From Deltaproteobacteria bacterium (lineage in GTDB: Bacteria > Desulfobacterota > Desulfovibrionia > Desulfovibrionales > Desulfovibrionaceae), in NCBI GenBank assembly GCA_031266055.1, contig JAISBT010000026.1:1-37966 (forward strand): a stretch of 37,966 nt of DNA, read 5' to 3'. The translations under genes and the position numbers were made by a program. The notes beneath the pieces were generated by a model that was not told the DNA's origin, ran no database searches, and saw only the letters and a list, made by a program, of their open reading frames with translations. This document shows positions 1,992 to 37,966 of the stretch, in pieces. Numbering within the stretch: position 1 is the stretch's first letter; every line of letters begins with the position of its first letter.

Positions 1992-2051
1992 GGCTCCGGC
2001 GGCGGTGCCCGCCGCCGGAGCCTTTCAACATTTTCAATGTTAAAATGCTCT
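1992..2051 (-). terminator. Terminator-like hairpin inside an AGAGCATTTT repeat copy
   Basis: On the minus strand the copy starts with AGAGCATTTTAACATT and its inverted arm, then forms a perfect 14-bp GC-rich stem (1992-2005 with 2009-2022, loop of 3). A T run follows about seven bases later. It begins within the rplY stop codon and should act as terminator or attenuator between rplY and pth. The same first module is found at 8983, 17269 and 35433. Confidence 0.6.
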
Positions 2052-2673
2052 AAGAAGCCGGTTTGGCGGCAACCGTAGCGGCATCCGCAGGTTCTTCCGC
2101 TTTTTCAATGTTTTTGGCCAGCACGCTTATGATTACGTAATTGGTTTTATATGCGGCGCGCGCTCCCTCGGGAATAAGCATGTCTTCAATGCGCAGGGAT
2201 TGGTTCAGATCCAGTTCGGTAACGTCCACGGTAATTTTTGCCGGCAAAGACAAAGGATTGCAGACCACATGGATGGATTCGCGGTAGATTTCAACCCTGC
2301 CGCCGAGCTTGGAGCCTTTGGCGGTACCGACAAATTCCAGCGGCACGCGGACGGTGATTTCCTTGGACAAATCCACTCCATAAATATCCACATGTTGAAT
2401 TCTTTTTTTAGTGGGGAAAAAGTCTATATCCCAGAATAAGGCGGCTGAAATTTCTTTTTTGCCATGGTCATCAATTTCCAGGTTGAAAACAGAAGTTTTT
2501 TTGATGCTCTGGTAAAGCATGGTCAGTTCTTTTTCGTTAATCTGCAAGAGTATATTCTGACCCGCGGAAGTGTAAAATATGGCGGGAATCTGAGCGAGGG
2601 CGCGCAGGCGCCGGGCAGCTCCTTTACCGGTGTTTTCGCGTTTTACGGCATGCAGGGTTGCGAATTCGGACAT
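2050..2673 (-). CDS. rplY: 50S ribosomal protein L25 / general stress protein Ctc
   Basis: Ribosomal protein of the CTC/L25 type that binds 5S rRNA. Residues 1-95 are the L25 domain (RENTGKGAARRLRALAQIPA, then YQSIKKTSVFNLEI). The C-terminal TL5/Ctc beta domain follows (RVPLEFVGTAKGSKLGG, NPLSLPAKITVDVTELDLNQ). The tail is Ala- and Glu-rich. I chose the ATG at 2671-2673 because MSEFATL matches the family start and AAGGAG lies upstream; the open frame continues 52 codons further 5' without homology. The length of 207 residues is usual for the two-domain form. The stop codon TAG is formed by the first bases of the adjoining repeat. It follows prs by 59 nt in the conserved order ispE-prs-rplY-pth. 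Confidence 0.96.
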   Translation of the reverse strand: MSEFATLHAVKRENTGKGAARRLRALAQIPAIFYTSAGQNILLQINEKELTMLYQSIKKTSVFNLEIDDHGKKEISAALFWDIDFFPTKKRIQHVDIYGVDLSKEITVRVPLEFVGTAKGSKLGGRVEIYRESIHVVCNPLSLPAKITVDVTELDLNQSLRIEDMLIPEGARAAYKTNYVIISVLAKNIEKAEEPADAATVAAKPAS

Positions 2674-8329: not shown

Positions 8330-8361
8330 GTATGCTCCAGGTTAACATTCATATTTAATTA

Positions 8362-8467
8362 CAGATTTCCGCATGGAAATCTGAACATCAGCCGTCAGGC
8401 TGATGCCGCCGCGAAGCGGCGAGAGTCAGCCGAAAACCGCGTTTTTCGGCTGACGATCCTCCGCAGA
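8362..8467 (-). repeat. Four-hairpin intergenic element, copy 1
   Basis: Four perfect stem-loops: CAGATTTCC/GGAAATCTG (8362-8383), CATCAGCC/GGCTGATG (8386-8405), CGCCGC/GCGGCG (8407-8421) and a 12-bp stem GTCAGCCGAAAA/TTTTCGGCTGAC (8425-8454), then GATCCTCCGCA. A second copy at 33741-33846 is in the opposite absolute orientation but the same orientation relative to the flanking genes. It sits between rpiB and cysS. Confidence 0.85.
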
Positions 8468-8474
8468 GAAAAGT

Positions 8475-8963
8475 TTACTTTTCAATGCGGATATCAGTAA
8501 ATAATTCAATTAGTTCAACCCGTTTGGCGTGACGCCCCCCGGAAAAGGGAGTTTCCATAAATATTTTGAGCAGTTCCCGGGCCAGCGGCGCCGCGGTGAC
8601 GCGTTCGCCGAAGCAGATGACGTTGGCGTTGTTATGAGCGCGGCTCATGCGGGCGTGAAACTCATGCGTACAGAGAGCCGCCCGTATGCCGGGCATACGG
8701 TTCGCGGACATGGAAACGCCGATGCCGGAGCCGCAAATTAAAATACCCATGCCGGAATCCGCCAGAACCGCCCGGCACACGGCGCGGGCCGCCCTGGGGT
8801 AGTCAAAGCGTCCGGGGTCGTACGTTCCGCAATCTTCTATACCGGAATCAACGTCCAGGCTGCGCAGATATTCCAGCAAATCAGCTTTCAGGTTGAACCC
8901 GGCGTGATCGGAACCGATATGGATATTTCCGCTGAAACCGTTGTGTGTATGTTTATCCGGCAC
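8475..8963 (-). CDS. rpiB: Ribose-5-phosphate isomerase B (RpiB/LacA/LacB family)
   Basis: Interconverts ribose 5-phosphate and ribulose 5-phosphate in the pentose phosphate pathway; the product feeds the PRPP synthetase encoded downstream. Diagnostic motifs: IGSDHAGFNLK near residue 16, DYPRAARAV, the catalytic-loop segment GILICGSGIGVSMSANR with the conserved Cys, and HNNANVICFGERV. The start is GTG, with AGGAG five bases upstream; a nearby ATG is out of frame. At 162 residues it is a little longer than the usual 145-155, because of a short polar N-terminal leader (KHTHNGFSGN). The gene is bracketed by two repeat elements, so it may be transcribed somewhat independently of its neighbours. 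Confidence 0.95.
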   Translation of the reverse strand: MPDKHTHNGFSGNIHIGSDHAGFNLKADLLEYLRSLDVDSGIEDCGTYDPGRFDYPRAARAVCRAVLADSGMGILICGSGIGVSMSANRMPGIRAALCTHEFHARMSRAHNNANVICFGERVTAAPLARELLKIFMETPFSGGRHAKRVELIELFTDIRIEK

Positions 8964-8982
8964 ATGTTCTCCTGTAAGTTTT

Positions 8983-9173
8983 AGAGCATTTTAACATTGA
9001 AAATGTTAAAATGCTCTGGCGGCGGGTACCGCCGCCCGCCCCGCAGGCGTAGGCGAAACTTGCTTTAGCCGTTGCTGCGTAGCAGCTTACGGATGAAGAC
9101 AGCAGTGATGTTTCGCCGTTAAGCGCCGGAGGTGGCGTCACAAAATTAAACTGCTCTAATGTCAAAATGCTCC
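8983..9173. repeat. MITE-like element with 16-bp terminal inverted repeats
   Basis: A 191-bp element. The left end AGAGCATTTTAACATT (8983-8998) matches the right end (9158-9173, inverted) at 14 of 16 positions. Inside are a perfect 16-bp hairpin with 3-nt loop (8983-9017), a GGCGGCGG/CCGCCGCC hairpin, and the large core with TTCAGCCGT / ACGGATGAAG arms and TGCTGCGTAGCA apex. It carries no supportable reading frame. Related copies occur at 17, 1992, 17269, 20231, 20812 and 35433. Its right end overlaps the 3' end of the LolB-like gene. Confidence 0.8.
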
Positions 9174-11842: not shown

Positions 11843-13066
11843 TTATTGCGGGTTGACCCATTCATGAGAAAAATCTTTGATATTGCTGAACAGGTGTTCG
11901 CGTATTTTTTGCAGAAGTCTTGCTTCAATCTGACGCACCCGTTCCCGGGTGATATGAAATTTTTCGCCGATTTCTCTTAAGGTTACGGGGTCGTCCGTGA
12001 GTAATCTGTGCGTGAGAATATACTCTTCCTTGGAAGAAAGCGAGGGGAGAATGGCTTGCAGCCTGTCCTGCACCATACCGGCAATTTCGTTGTGCGCAAG
12101 CATGTCTTCAATGCCCGGGCCCAAAGCCGGCAAATAATCCATATGCGTGGCTCCGGACGGTTCGTCGGAATTCATGGGCAGATTGAGCGACATGTCGGTG
12201 GCGTCCATACGTTGTTCCATTTCTATAATCTGTTCTTCGGTAACGTCCAGATTCTTGGACAGGGTGGCCGTATCCGGGTCAAACCCCTGGGATATGAGGC
12301 GCTGCCTTTCTTTGTTCAGATTATAAAAAAGTTTGCGTTGGGCCTGCGTAGTGCCGATTTTGACCATGCGCCAGTTGTCCATGATGAATTTCAAAATATA
12401 GGCTTTAATCCAGAAGGCCGCATAGTATGAAAATTTGATGCCTTTTTCCGGGTCGAATTTGCTCACGGCGCGCACCAGGCCCACATTGCCCTCCTGAATG
12501 AGATCCAGCACGCTTTGCATCCAGCGGCGCTGAAAATCCATGGCGATGCGGACAACCAGACGTAAATGCGAAGAAATAAGGGCGAACGCCGCGTCCGGGT
12601 CGCCGGTATCGCGGACTTTACGGGCCAGAGTCAGTTCTTCTTCGGGGGTGAGCATGGCAAAATGGCTTATTTCGCGCATATAGTAATGCAGGCTGTCGCG
12701 TGCGGCGGCGCTGTCCGGCAGTCTGGGCAGCAGAGTAAAGACGTCTTTTCCGGAGGGAAGGGCTTTCAGGCTCAAGTCGGCCGCGCGCTCTCCCGGCAAA
12801 CGGTCAAACATGTCCGGCATGTCCGAAACCGCATCCAGATCGGGCGCCAGCCCATCCGGGATGATCTCCGGCAAATCGTCAAGCAGTTCTTCATCATCAA
12901 GATTATCCAAAAATTCGTATTCAGCGGAACCGCCGCCGGAATTTTCTTCGTAATTCATGTCCGCGTCCGGCTCCGGGGGGCTTGAAAAAACGGATTTTCT
13001 TTCCGCCGTATGCCCGGGAGCTTTACCCGCCGTTTTGGACGTATGCTTGAGGGGTTTCATTTTCAT
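11843..13066 (-). CDS. rpoH: RpoH-like sigma-70 family sigma factor with acidic N-terminal extension
   Basis: Alternative sigma factor. From about residue 118 it has sigma region 1.2/2 (YYMREISHFAMLTPEEELTLA, VLDLIQEGNVGLVRAVSKFD, FSYYAAFWIKAYILKFIMDNW). The KLFYNL segment is the RpoH box typical of sigma-32. Region 3 follows, then a region 4 helix-turn-helix (TLREIGEKFHITRERVRQIEARLLQKI). An RpoH factor would direct heat-shock genes; targets cannot be read from this window. The first ~115 residues are unusual: low complexity, rich in Asp/Glu/Pro (DNLDDEELLDDLPEIIPDG), and absent from the compact 280-300 residue enterobacterial RpoH. No Shine-Dalgarno sequence precedes the ATG, and a good -10 lies six bases upstream. 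A start further inside (Met37) is possible. First gene of the minus-strand run. Confidence 0.88.
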   Translation of the reverse strand: MKMKPLKHTSKTAGKAPGHTAERKSVFSSPPEPDADMNYEENSGGGSAEYEFLDNLDDEELLDDLPEIIPDGLAPDLDAVSDMPDMFDRLPGERAADLSLKALPSGKDVFTLLPRLPDSAAARDSLHYYMREISHFAMLTPEEELTLARKVRDTGDPDAAFALISSHLRLVVRIAMDFQRRWMQSVLDLIQEGNVGLVRAVSKFDPEKGIKFSYYAAFWIKAYILKFIMDNWRMVKIGTTQAQRKLFYNLNKERQRLISQGFDPDTATLSKNLDVTEEQIIEMEQRMDATDMSLNLPMNSDEPSGATHMDYLPALGPGIEDMLAHNEIAGMVQDRLQAILPSLSSKEEYILTHRLLTDDPVTLREIGEKFHITRERVRQIEARLLQKIREHLFSNIKDFSHEWVNPQ

Positions 13067-16743: not shown

Positions 16744-17270
16744 AAGAAAAATTTGGAAAGGTATTGTTCAGCCGGGGGGATATCAGCAGGCGCGTACAGG
16801 AAATAGCTTCGGACATAAACCGGTTTTATGCCGGGGAACCTTTGGTGGTTTTGTGCGTTTTGAAAGGCGCTTTCATGTTTTTCGCCGATTTAATCAAACA
16901 TGTCACCGTATTGCCGGAGATTGATTTTGTGCGGATTGCAAGTTACGGCAATTCCGTTTCAGCCGGCAAAGCCATAAGTTTTACCAAAGACATTGAGTTG
17001 TCATTGCAGGATAAGCATGTGCTTATTGTTGAAGATATAGTTGATACCGGACACAGCATGCAATTTTTGTTTGGCCAGATGCAGGCTCGCGGCGCAAAGA
17101 GCATGAGGCTTTGCGCTTTGATCGACAAGCAGGAACGCAGAGAAACCGACGTCAAGGTTGATTTGTCCGGTTTTAAGCTTGCTGATGGCTTCATTGTCGG
17201 GTATGGACTTGATTATGCGGAAAAATACCGGGAACTGCCTGAAATCAGGCTGCTGGAGTTTATTCATTAG
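16740..17270 (+). CDS. hpt: Hypoxanthine phosphoribosyltransferase
   Basis: Purine salvage enzyme joining hypoxanthine (or guanine) to PRPP. The type I phosphoribosyltransferase signature VLIVEDIVDTGHSMQFL lies at about residues 95-111. Other family landmarks are VVLCVLKGAFMFFADL (PPi loop), IDFVRIASYGNS and the hood segment GFIVGYGLDYAEKYRELPEI. At 176 residues it is typical. It starts at ATG within the acetyltransferase stop (four-base overlap). Its own TAG stop is the beginning of an AGAGCRNTTT-type repeat that follows immediately, so transcription of this operon probably ends or slows there. Confidence 0.96.
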   Translation: MKEKFGKVLFSRGDISRRVQEIASDINRFYAGEPLVVLCVLKGAFMFFADLIKHVTVLPEIDFVRIASYGNSVSAGKAISFTKDIELSLQDKHVLIVEDIVDTGHSMQFLFGQMQARGAKSMRLCALIDKQERRETDVKVDLSGFKLADGFIVGYGLDYAEKYRELPEIRLLEFIH

Positions 17271-17436
17271 AGCGGTTTAACATTGAAAATGTTGAAATGC
17301 TCTGGCGGCGGACACCGTCGCCCGCCCCGCAGGCGCAGGCGAAACTTGCTTCATCCGCAGCTTCCTTCGTCGCGGAAATGCTTGCAGGCGAGCGAAAGCC
17401 CACTGTTCAGGCAAGCATTTCAAGCGTAAAATGTTC
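17269..17436 (+). repeat. AGAGCATTTT-family element after hpt
   Basis: Starts in the hpt stop codon with AGAGCGGTTTAACATT and its inverted arm (17269-17303), then a GGCGGCGG/CCGTCGCC hairpin, then a truncated core. In place of the second core half there is an 11-bp hairpin GAAATGCTTGC/GCAAGCATTTC (17375-17385, 17411-17421) and the tail CAAGCGTAAAATGTTCT. The last hairpin is the one seen at 190-235. The copy is a mosaic of modules from the family. Confidence 0.8.
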
Positions 17437-31292: not shown

Positions 31293-33677
31293 ATGAACCT
31301 TCGTTTGAAAATACAGTTGCCGATCATCGCGCTCATCATACTGATAATGGGCGTCAGCGGTTATCTGTCTTATCAGCGATCCGCAACGGCGCTCAAAGAA
31401 GCCCTTGTGGACACCATGCGCGGCGAGGCCAATGCTCTGGTCAGGTCGTTCAATGTCCTGACGACTACAGTTCTTGAAGCGGCCTACCGCATTTCCATCG
31501 AAGAGGAGGTGGATGCTTTTTACAGAACATCCCGCAACATTCCGGGGGAAAAAGAAAGCTTCAGCGAGAGGTTGAAGACCATTGAGCAGACATACGGGAA
31601 TTTCGATCGCATCGCCCTGCTTGACGACAAGGGCATTATCCTGGCCTCGACAGCTCCGGAGAGCATCGGGCAGAATTTCGGCGACCGGGACTATTTCAAG
31701 GCCGCCATACAGGGAAAGACGTTTATTTCCCAGCCGATGTTGAGCAGGGTTTCCGGCAAGGGCGTCATTATAGCGGCCGCGCCCATAAAACTGGACGGCA
31801 GGATCTCCGGCATCGTGTATTGCTCCATCCCCTGCGACAAGATTTTTGACGTCTCGATCAGGGAAATTTCCGTGGGTAAAAAAGGATATGCCTTTGTGCT
31901 GGGGCAAAACGGACAGATTGTGATGCACCGGAACCCGGATTATATGTTCAAGGATTTGCCGACCACGCCTTATTACAAGGAAATGATCGCCGGTGCGGAT
32001 GAGTCCGGCGTAAGGGAATACACGGGGCTCAACGGGGCTCTTGTGTACAACTATTTCTGGAAGAACAAGGAGTCCGGCCTGATTGTGATCGTCCAGGCCG
32101 AAAGCGACGATGTTTTTTCGTCTCTTGGCCTCATCCGCAATACGACGCTCATAGTAAGCGCGGTGTCGGTGCTTGTGGGCGCAATTCTGCTCTTTTTCCT
32201 GCTCAGCCCGCTGTTGAACACCCTGAAGGCGAGTATCGCATTTGCCGGGCGCATTGCCGCGGGCGATCTTTCCGGAACGCTTTCCGTCAAGCGCAAAGAC
32301 GAGCTTGGCCGGCTGGCCGACGCCCTCCGGGCCATTCCGTCCCTGCTCCGGCAGATTATTCAGGAATACCAGACTCTGGAAAAAGAAATTATCCACGGCG
32401 CGTTGCATTCCGAGGCTGACGCGGGGAAATTCCCGGGAGAATTCGCCGTATTGGTTGAGAAAACCAATGCCGTTCTGGGGCGTTTCCGCCGGATTGTGGA
32501 TTCCATTCCTTCTCCCGTCGTCATGATGGATCAGAATGTCCGGGTCACCTTCGCCAACGCGGCGGCCCGCGAACTTGTGGGTACCGACTACAAAGGCAAA
32601 ACCTGCAAAGAACTGATGAACCGCGAGGACTCGGACTCTCCGGCGGACGCCCTGAAGCGGGCGGCGGAAGAACAGCGCAGCGTTTCGGCCGAAACCCGCG
32701 CGCATCCGCGGGGCAAGGTCATAGATGTGGCATACTCGGTCATTCCTATGCCGGATGCTGAGGGCAAGGTGGCGTCTTTTCTGGATCTGTACACCGATCT
32801 TACCGATATAAAAAACGCTCAGCGCATGTTGCGCAATGCGGCCGATCAGGCTTTGGCGGTGTCGGAGCGCGTGACCAGGGCTTCTGAAGGGTTGGCCGCG
32901 CAGGTGGAGCAGGTGGCCAAAGGAGCCGGGGTACAGCGCACCCGTGTGGAAAGCACGGCATCGGCCATGACGGAAATGAGTTCCGCCGCGCTGGAAGTGG
33001 CGCGAAGCGCCGGTCAGGCTTCGGAGCAGAGCGAGACGACGAAGGGCAAGGCAAAAGACGGGGAGGAACTGGTGAACAGGGTGGTGGCCGCCATTCATTC
33101 GGTGAACAAAATGGCGGACGCTCTGCAAACCAACATGCAGGAGCTCGGCGACCGGGCTGAAAACATAGGCGGAGTAATGAACGTCATTTCCGACATTGCC
33201 GATCAGACGAACCTGCTGGCGCTTAACGCGGCCATTGAAGCGGCCCGCGCCGGAGAAGCCGGACGGGGCTTCGCGGTTGTGGCGGACGAGGTGCGCAAGC
33301 TCGCGGAAAAAACCATGCACGCCACGCAGGAAGTCGGCGGGAACATTACGGCCATTCAGCGCTCCGCCAAAACGAACCAGCAGGAAGTGGGCGAAGCGGT
33401 TGCGGCGGTTGCGGAAGCCACCGCGCTGGCCAACAATTCCGGTCTGGCTCTGACCGAAATCGTGAACCTTGCGGCATCCAATTCCGCGCTTGTCGCTTCC
33501 ATCGCGTCGGCGGCGGAAGAGCAACGGGCCACATCGGAGGAGATCAACTCCGCTATTGAAGAGGTCAACCGAATTGTCGGGGAAACTTCGGAAGGCATGG
33601 TGCAGGCGTCTTCCTCCGTTCAGGATCTGTCGCGCATGGCGCATGAATTGAACCGCATTATGGAAGAATTGAAATAG
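31293..33677 (+). CDS. Methyl-accepting chemotaxis protein (dCache-HAMP-like-PAS-signal domain)
   Basis: Chemoreceptor of 794 residues. A first transmembrane helix (about 8-28) and a second (about 283-308) enclose a periplasmic double-Cache-type sensor ([49 protein letters not shown]). A HAMP-like linker follows. A cytoplasmic PAS domain occupies about 399-510 ([21 protein letters not shown], with [13 protein letters not shown]). The signalling domain contains the kinase-contact tip [20 protein letters not shown]. Ligand unknown. A C-terminal CheR-docking pentapeptide is absent (ends MEELK). ATG start with AAGGAG upstream. The cytoplasmic half is a close paralogue of the receptor at 35892. 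Confidence 0.95.
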
Positions 33678-33740: not shown

Positions 33741-33846
33741 TGCGGAGGATCGTCAACCGAAAAACGTGGTTTCCGGTTGACTCTCGCCGCGAAGCGGCGA
33801 CATCAGCCGGACGGCTGATGTTCAGATTTCCATGCGGAAATCTGAA
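33741..33846 (+). repeat. Four-hairpin intergenic element, copy 2
   Basis: Reverse complement, by coordinate, of the copy at 8362-8467, hence the same sense relative to genes. Stems: GTCAACCGAAAA with TTTCCGGTTGAC (33752-33781), CGCCGC/GCGGCG (33785-33799), CATCAGCC/GGCTGATG (33801-33820) and CAGATTTCC/GGAAATCTG (33823-33844). In the first stem a G-C pair of copy 1 is an A-T pair here, a compensatory change. The rest of the 33678-33973 gap holds no gene. Confidence 0.85.
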
Positions 33847-35402: not shown

Positions 35403-35432
35403 TTGACACTCAAAATTGGAATTGCCGATATT
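35403..35432 (+). promoter_or_regulatory. Candidate promoter upstream of the second chemoreceptor
   Basis: TTGACA (35403-35408; 6/6), an 18-nt spacer and GATATT (35427-35432; 4/6). If used, transcription would run through the adjoining repeat copy and give the second chemoreceptor a leader of roughly 450 nt. Confidence 0.35.
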
Positions 35433-35609
35433 AGAGCATTTTAACATTGAAAATGTTGAAATGCTCTGGCGGCGGGTACCGCCGCCCGCCCCGCAGGCGT
35501 AGACGAAACTTGCTTCAGCCGTTGCGACGAAGGAAGCTACGGATGAAGACAGCAGCGATGTTTCGCCGTAAAGCGCCGGAGGGAGCGTCTCAAAGTTAAA
35601 TTGCCTTAG
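35433..35609 (+). repeat. AGAGCATTTT-family element, near-complete copy
   Basis: Same module order as the copy at 8983: AT hairpin (35433-35467), GGCGGCGG/CCGCCGCC hairpin, then the core with CTTCAGCCGT / ACGGATGAAG arms. In the AT hairpin, substitutions relative to the 8983 copy retain pairing through G-T pairs. The apex differs (GCGACGAAGGAAGC in place of TGCTGCGTAGCAGC). The right terminal repeat is degenerate. Confidence 0.8.
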
Positions 35610-35891: not shown

Positions 35892-37966
35892 ATGACCACA
35901 AAATGGAAAATTATCACAGGATTCGTCGTCATGATCCTGTTGATGAGCACTGTATCCGCCATCGGCTACATCAGCCTCGCCAATATATCAAGTTCCTTGA
36001 CGGAATATCGCCGTCTGGCCCGACTCAACGTGCGCTATTCCGATCTGCTCGCCAATCAGTTCGCCTCATCGGCCAGCATACGTTTGTTCCGCATTACCGC
36101 AAATCCCCAACTGATGGAAGACGCCCGCGGCTTTATCAAAAGCAATCTGGACATCGCCAAGGAAGCCGAAGCCTATGCCGAGCGCCAGGATGTCAAGGAT
36201 GTGCTGGCCAATGTGGAGAAAAGCGCCAACGAACAGATGCGGGCGGCCACCGAACTGGAAAAAAATGTTTTGCTGACCTTTGCCTTGTATAAAGACCGTC
36301 TGCAACCAGCCGTGGGGAATTTCGGCGCGGCCATGACCGCGCTGGCTGAAGCCTTCGACGCTGTCGGCAACCACAGGGCTTCTCTTGAACTCATCCCGTT
36401 TATGAATGATTTTTCCGCCGCCACCGCCGCTTTCAGCACGGCCACTTACTCCCGCACATCACAGAATGCGATACAGGCGATGGAAGACCTGAACGTCCTG
36501 AACAAACACATGGAAAAATTACGCGGAATGCTGATTTCCGACCAGGGACGCGCAGCCTTCGCCATACTTGAAAAAAACTACGCCGATATGGTGAATATAG
36601 TCAAGGAGATGAACACGGCTGTCACTGCGGCGGTGAAACAGAATGATCTTCTTCTGATCATGTACTCCGACCTTGGAAAAGCCATTCAAGCCGCCAGCAA
36701 GAGCGTTGACGGACAGATGAACCAGGCGGGCGCGTACTCGGGACAGGTGAACGACAACGCCCGGACTTCAATGCTCGCCGTCACCACCGCCGGCCTGATC
36801 ATCGGCATTTTGCTGGCCGTGTTCATCATTTTCGGTCTTGTCCGGATGCTGCACGCCATGAGTTCCTTTGTCGATTCCGTAGCCGGGGGCGACTTCAATG
36901 CCAAGATGTCCCGCCACGAAAAAGGGGAAATCGGCCATACCCTTGAAAGCATGCGGCAGATTCCCGTGGTTCTGCAAGCCATTCTCGGCGAATACCATGC
37001 GCTGGGAAAGCGCATCGAGAACGGAGAACTGGACGCCAAGGGCAACCCGGCCGCGTACAAAGGGGGCTTCGCCACGCTGCTTGAGGGCACCAACGCTATT
37101 TTGAACCACTTCCTCCTGCTTGTGGAAAACATTCCCTCTTCCGTGGTGATGCTGGGCGGCAAAGACCTCAAGGCTTCTTACGTGAACGCCGCCTGCCGCG
37201 AAGTCGCCGGTACGGAGTGCAAGGGCAAGACCTGCAAGCAGCTCATGGAACGCGAAGACTATGGCAGTCCCGCCGATGCCCTGATAAAAGCCGTGGAAAC
37301 CATGAAGTCCTCCACCGCCGAAACCCGTGCCCACCCGCAGGGCAAAAACCTGGACGTCCGTTATACCGCCATTCCCATGCTGAACGGTGAAGGCAAGCTC
37401 GCCGCCGTACTCCAGTTTATCACGGATTTGACCGCAATCAAGCAGACCCAGCGCACCATCCGCACTGTGGCCGACAAGGCGGCAGGCATTTCCAGCCGGG
37501 TAGCCGCAGCCTCCGAAGAACTTTCAGCCCAGGTGGAACAGGTCACGCGTGGGGCGGAAATGCAACGTTCCCGCATAGACAGCACGGCCTCGGCCATGTC
37601 GGAAATGAATTCCACCGTGCTGGAGGTGGCCCGTAACGCCGGGCAGGCATCGGAACAATCCAAACTGACCAAGGACAAGGCCAATGACGGCTCTGCCCTG
37701 GTGGGCAAGGTGGTGCAGGCGATCAATCAGGTGAACAAGGTGGCGGCCGCGCTCCAGACCAACATGCGGGAATTGGGAACCCAGGCGGAAAGCATCGGCG
37801 GAGTGATGAACGTCATCTCCGACATCGCGGATCAGACCAATCTGCTGGCGCTGAACGCCGCCATTGAAGCGGCCCGCGCCGGAGAAGCCGGGCGCGGTTT
37901 CGCCGTGGTGGCCGACGAGGTGAGGAAGCTGGCGGAAAAGACCATGACCGCCACGCATGAAGTGGG
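35892..37966 (+). CDS. Methyl-accepting chemotaxis protein, 3' end beyond the window
   Basis: Open from ATG 35892 to the window end (691 codons), so partial. A first transmembrane helix (about 7-29) and a second (about 294-316) enclose a periplasmic region of about 265 residues that is rich in helix with heptad-like patterns. It is a four-helix-bundle type of sensor, not Cache. A HAMP-like stretch, a PAS domain (about 410-520, with [13 protein letters not shown]) and the signalling domain with [20 protein letters not shown] follow. From the PAS domain onward it is a close paralogue of the receptor at 31293, while the sensor differs. AAAGGAG is placed ideally before the ATG. Ligand unknown. 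Confidence 0.94.

Follow-up and report, generated by a model that had tools for sequence, protein, structure and literature searches.

The unit and its two copies

How should two strongly folding non-coding blocks with compensatory changes between them be explained, by selection on an RNA at each site or by the spread of mobile DNA? The window, meaning the whole stretch of 37,966 nucleotides analysed here, carries the blocks as an inverted pair of 104 nt (8362-8465 and 33741-33844, 91% complementary). As the first-pass annotation had described, both contain the same four stem-loops in unchanged order, and the paired replacement of GTCAGCC/GGCTGAC by GTCAACC/GGTTGAC is genuine. Folding of both blocks is far above that of dinucleotide shuffles (z −5.7 and −7.7). 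The extent of about 105 bp given for the unit did not hold, however, as the block sits within a 140-bp repeat with five hairpins. This repeat is very likely a miniature inverted-repeat transposable element (MITE), that is, mobile DNA that inserts at TA, is present in about 95-100 copies and probably depends for its movement on a transposase that targets TA and acts in trans. We consider it to be mobile DNA because of its TA-flanked ends, its empty sites and its patchy distribution.

Aligned copies define the element as 140 bp of non-coding DNA from TA to TA (TA-CTGATATCCGCA...TGCGGAAATCTG-TA; in full TA-CTGATATCCGCATTGAAAAGTAAACTTTTCCCTGCGGAGGATCGTCAACCGAAAAACGTGGTTTTCGGTTGACTCTCGCCGCTTCGCGGCGACATCAGCCGGACGGCTGATGTTCAGATTTCCATGCGGAAATCTG-TA), with a stop codon in every sense frame. 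The termini are imperfect inverted repeats of the form TACwGATwTCCGCA with a TA on each side, and they are short, TACTGATATCCGCA and TACAGATTTCCGCA being identical at 12 of 14 positions with 2 mismatches. The full-length copy of the window lies on the minus strand (8360-8499) and matches the 57-copy consensus from end to end, with both the left end TACTGATATCC and the right end GGAAATCTGTA in place. Its left terminal repeat with the flanking TA (8486-8499, minus strand) pairs imperfectly with the right one (8360-8373, plus strand). The fold of the full unit has a predicted energy of −74.8 kcal/mol (z −8.7) and includes a 5′ hairpin that had been missed (hairpin 1, GATATCCGCATTGAAAAG/CTTTTCTCTGCGGAGGATC, 8455-8495). 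On the same minus strand follow hairpin 2 (GTCAGCCGAAAA-ACGCGG-TTTTCGGCTGAC, 8425-8454), in which the compensated pair is G-C, as well as hairpin 3 (CGCCGC-TTC-GCGGCG, 8407-8421) and hairpin 4 (GCATCAGCC-TGAC-GGCTGATGT, 8385-8406). Hairpin 5 (CAGATTTCC-ATGC-GGAAATCTG, 8362-8383) also exists as a stand-alone 26-bp form at other sites of the genome.

The second copy (33741-33846, plus strand) is 5′-truncated and decayed. Hairpin 1 is gone except for its end (33741-33751), followed by hairpins 2 (33752-33781), 3 (33785-33799), 4 (33800-33821) and 5 (33823-33844). Its right TA is mutated to AA, a stem change at 33773 is uncompensated and leaves an A-C mismatch, and the loop of hairpin 3 is inverted (GAA instead of TTC). 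Shorter forms in the genome make up a series of internal deletions of about 26, 48, 71, 90, 103 and 118 bp. Back-to-back end repeats were also observed as lone palindromes of 24-26 bp (TACAGATTTCCGCATGGAAATCTGTA) in several species (L079, L159, L163, L261, L180, L196); these may be deletion products or independent units.

Copy number and genomic placement

Only two copies had been known from the window. Pattern searches of the host genome (2.75 Mb in 202 contigs, 91% complete) returned 94 left ends, 76 right ends and 89 terminal palindromes, corresponding to about 95-100 copies. With genes called from open reading frames and codon bias only, none of the predicted genes carries an internal copy, and placement is intergenic and dispersed. 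That the element has the same sense as the neighbouring genes is correct for both window copies but is not a rule: a weak bias exists at tandem sites, 32 of 47 being in sense (p 0.02), and orientation relative to the left neighbour is random (42:39).

The full-length copy overlaps the end of a ribose-5-phosphate isomerase B-like gene (rpiB, 8475-8963, minus strand), to which it contributes the last codons (TDIRIEK) and the stop codon TAA. The encoded C-terminus reads ...VELIELF-TDIRIEK, whereas RpiB of relatives, which lack the element there, ends near ...VELIE-x-stop. Nine genes were observed to stop within the first 26 bp of the element and to gain short tails of this kind (window 8475-8499, L055, L071, L074, L083, L089, L097, L099 and L114). 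Copies that are co-transcribed would equip the transcripts of host genes with strong hairpins and, in some cases, a stop codon, effects that look incidental. Elsewhere in the window, two adjoining genes that look like chemoreceptors share 300-nt stretches of 71% identity (32880-33179 and 37509-37808).

Insertion at TA dinucleotides

Among 56 full copies, the left T is present in 50 and the left A in 53, and the right TA in 55. A T before and an A after the dinucleotide are favoured in these copies, (T)TA(A). Copies have TA at both ends, where paralogous empty sites have it once, as in a target-site duplication. When the flanks of a copy were joined and the doubled TA was reduced to one, an intact other repeat or paralogous sequence was rebuilt at TA; this was clear in seven cases (L048, L079, L087, L106, L116, L119, L144), mostly with one duplicated TA. 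The rebuilt junctions include ACACT-TA-AAACTTCGCT (L106, L119) and GCGTTTTTA-ATTTGGAATTGG (L048, L116), as well as that of L087. At L079 it is the 26-bp form that has inserted into otherwise intact sequence, and at L144, from a second species, the junction is clean and the right-hand TA is not preserved. As a screen this approach is noisy: with self loci excluded, deliberately mispaired flanks yielded 5 spanning matches compared to 8 for real pairs, one of the 5 control matches being two insertions into one repeat type. Because re-paired flanks also gave matches, the case for empty sites rests on inspection of each junction. In ten relatives rpiB and cysS are adjacent without the element; these species are diverged, so this comparison is not base-exact. 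Several copies occupy one and the same TA within a further palindromic repeat (AATTAAAAATTAACGCGTTTTTA^ATTTGGAATTGGAAT; L048, with the copy at 12641 on the minus strand, L116, L102 and L084), as if the hairpin loop of that repeat were a preferred target.

These boundaries bear on a different type of mobile repeat. A repeat of the REP/BIME type, mobilised by a RAYT (Y1) transposase and perhaps belonging to the REPs with a CGTC tag, would account for the high copy number, the palindromes and the stand-alone 26-bp hairpins, and CGTC does precede hairpin 2; a CGTC-tagged REP superfamily without a known transposase has been described (PMC3733652). The mobile boundary found here, however, consists of TA, inverted ends and a TA duplication and not of a single 20-40-bp palindrome with a GTAG or CGTC tag, and the CGTC is internal. 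In addition, neither the host (G000) nor another copy-rich genome (G147), which are 91-92% complete, contains a Y1 transposase. We regard the REP explanation as highly improbable.

Distribution across genomes

Of 288 family genomes, 5 contain exact ends, and these come from two genera: the host, and four species from another genus (g37). Six congeners of the host contain no full copy, one of them having a 40-bp core fragment. Named carriers are the Desulfovibrio sp. metagenome-assembled genomes (MAGs) Nc350_bin1 (JAISWB) and Nc350_bin8 (JAISZH). With relaxed ends, further g37 species showed divergent copies of unchanged plan. Searches of plasmid, phage and viral collections returned no copy. 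As far as the few loci that could be compared show, species do not have element sites in common. With one assembly per species, the data give no insertion polymorphism within a species. At the DNA level, matched genes of the host and the two bins are about 70% identical and the elements 85-89%. Since the elements are more alike than the genes, this suggests horizontal spread, although the element being under strong constraint could also play a part in the difference. In the two named MAGs, many contigs (L122-L158) end within the element, from which it follows that the element breaks short-read assemblies.

Test for selection on the RNA fold

The first-pass annotation had taken the paired changes as selection on RNA structure, i.e. 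an mRNA-stabilising or 3′-end element or a small-RNA family. Such a cis-acting RNA, selected at each site, is in keeping with the stable fold, the modest sense bias at tandem sites and the covariation across subfamilies and species. Indeed, the hairpin architecture has been kept over deep divergence, and the paired changes between subfamilies and species are genuine. In a between-species set of 35 sequences, 97.1% of cells are paired, 41 cells show two-sided changes compared to 15.4 in shuffles, and the covariation score of 0.093 (0.059 in shuffles) is far above slid controls. The number of pairs showing two-sided change is unexceptional (6 versus 3.9, with 6 reached in 33 of 500 shuffles). 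In the second species, the hairpin 4 pairs 97-112 and 99-110 change jointly.

Selection at individual sites is not borne out by the copies within the host, where uncompensated stem changes are common, an outcome that the first-pass annotation had itself set as counter-evidence. In the 57 full host copies we counted 64 one-sided pair breaks, 47 changes of the G-U kind and 11 that are compensated. The single pair of the first-pass annotation, a marker of one subfamily, makes up 8 of these 11. This pair is G-C in all 16 copies from other species, its A-T state marks a host subfamily, and one-sided intermediates exist (A-C in 3 copies, G-T in 2, C-T in 1). Stems have taken private mutations at 0.49 per site and unpaired positions at 0.34 (p 0.32), so that stems show no depletion. 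Private mutations in stems break pairs more often than not (36:14, i.e. 36 of 50), and private transitions show no excess of G-U-forming over A-C-forming changes (13:12). Because stems are as mutated as loops, pairs are mostly broken and G-U and A-C changes are even, single copies show no sign of RNA-level constraint, within the limited power of 63 private mutations. The compensatory changes separate subfamilies and species, and single copies decay without keeping the fold. Also speaking against an RNA element are the site differences between species, few as those comparisons are, and the random orientation towards the left neighbour. Searching Rfam 15 at gathering and relaxed thresholds gave no family match, the window yielding only a tRNA and otherwise chance-level hits, and 53 of 56 full copies have no T tract. 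Taken together, it is very improbable that the repeat is an RNA element maintained at each site.

A role as a rho-independent terminator was considered separately and rejected, as a T tract follows hairpin 5 in only 3 of 56 full copies. The copy at 33741 does have such a T tract and might, judged from its sequence, act as a terminator there by chance. No promoter-like match was found in the element.

If the repeat is a MITE, the paired stem changes call for another origin. They may have arisen by template switching in DNA replication, with arm-to-arm copying and loop inversion, and not by selection. Compensatory changes and inverted loops are among the known products of template switching at palindromes (PMC8794818). 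In our copies, loops are inverted as a whole into exact reverse complements (TTC in 48 and GAA in 5; GGAC in 26 and GTCC in 12), and the deletions look as if joined at short direct repeats at the bases of hairpins, so that the loop inversions and the shorter forms both fit this process. On the other hand, the one-sided intermediates of the compensated pair speak against it, and the persistence of the structure across several species is also explained by selection on mobility. We give template switching an even chance; it would not exclude the alternative, selection acting on the lineage that transposes. For the MITE, hairpins would persist in lineages that transpose, either by aiding transposition as DNA hairpins or by being recopied arm from arm, and individual copies would decay near-neutrally after insertion.

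Search for the transposase and related repeat families

The MITE would be moved in trans by a DDE transposase that targets TA and recognises TACwGATwTCCGCA, most probably one of the IS630/mariner kind; only the TA target and the neighbouring families point to an IS630-like mover. Beside the element ends examined, we found no transposase or autonomous parent with matching ends, which speaks against the MITE reading, as do the short and imperfect inverted repeats. The IS630-type transposases of six genomes carry other ends, agreeing in the TA target only; those of a relic in the host (L121) are TAGTGCAGTGTAACATTTAA. A search of 19 relatives with a relaxed end pattern for a long element gave only MITE copies, 24-26-bp forms and chance matches in the 18 stretches inspected out of about 120 places listed. 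Draft assemblies commonly lose copies of insertion sequences.

The same genomes contain other small repeats. That the element shares no sequence with the AGAGCATTTT family, as noted earlier, is true of the ends. Repeats of this family (window 1998-2053, 8981-9154, 17267-17362 and 35431-35604) are probably IS630-derived MITEs, as in a relative (L198; G156:C41) an IS630-type transposase gene lies between inverted ends of 20 bp, TAGAGCATTTTAACTTTGAA, which match perfectly and are separated by 998 bp. The IS630-linked families (AGAGCATTTT and AGTACGCTGTAACACTT) resemble our element in TA target, small size and palindromic build, and the AGTACGCTGTAACACTT family shares the core of hairpins 2 and 3 with it. 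Both differ from it by other terminal repeats and by having recognisable IS630 relatives (L198, L121).

A second repeat family of about 170 bp (ends TACCATGTCACACTT... and ...AAGTGTTACAGCGTACTA; copies at L059, L063, L064, L070, L090 and L121) has five hairpins and the same module order as the MITE, and its ends resemble those of the IS630-type relic in the host genome. Over 58 columns its core is homologous to that of the MITE, with a local score of 41, which the best of 1000 shuffles (27) does not reach. The stem of hairpin 2 differs on both sides and the loop AAAAACGTGGTTTT is unchanged; within the core, stems change, while loops, linkers and order stay. At L100 and L086 the left half of the MITE is joined to sequence resembling the second family. 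A form of roughly 58 bp of this family's end unit was also seen. It is conceivable, if rather unlikely, that the core of three hairpins (GATCG linker, hairpin with the AAAAACGTGGTTTT loop, CGCCGC hairpin and GC hairpin) is an exchangeable cassette which two or more MITE families of one genome, differing in their ends, have in common, and that the core has an effect of its own, for instance by shielding from the host or the transposition machinery or by offering it a handle.

Comparison with known systems

The element adds an abundant, highly structured MITE family for relatives of Desulfovibrio, and it is a worked case in which compensatory changes between repeats need not mean RNA function at each site. 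A common hairpin core with different ends further offers a system for studying how modular MITEs arise and whether template switching keeps their hairpins. An open-access literature search gave no description of this family.

BOX of Streptococcus pneumoniae (PMC3049150) is likewise a modular small repeat with inverted ends, target duplication, extensive RNA-foldable structure and variable internal modules that inserts into other repeats and is intergenic. The two are unrelated in sequence and are compared by architecture only; our element has a TA target and five hairpins, and it loses internal modules by deletion, no amplified modules having been seen. RUP (S. pneumoniae, 107 bp, IS630-Spn1; PMC2229807, PMC3049150) agrees with it in size, TA termini, about 100 copies, intergenic position and stop codons, but has an IS630 relative with matching ends, which was not found here. 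Correia/NEMIS elements (Neisseria, about 107/155 bp; PMC2229807) are also TA-flanked and occur in a long and an internally shortened form, with about 100 copies and a highly structured transcript, the latter being predicted for our element. Their inverted repeats are longer (about 24 bp), and they carry promoters and an IHF site, whereas ours has short ends. ERIC/IRU (enterobacteria, 127 bp; PMC2229807, PMC10969869) is similarly TA-flanked and foldable, inserts at the 3′ ends of genes and can extend open reading frames. Its sequence is unrelated, and our element is a chain of five hairpins. ERIC folds mainly as one long stem-loop. The MITE described here, apparently a family without previous description, is therefore BOX-like in construction and Correia-, RUP- and ERIC-like in target.
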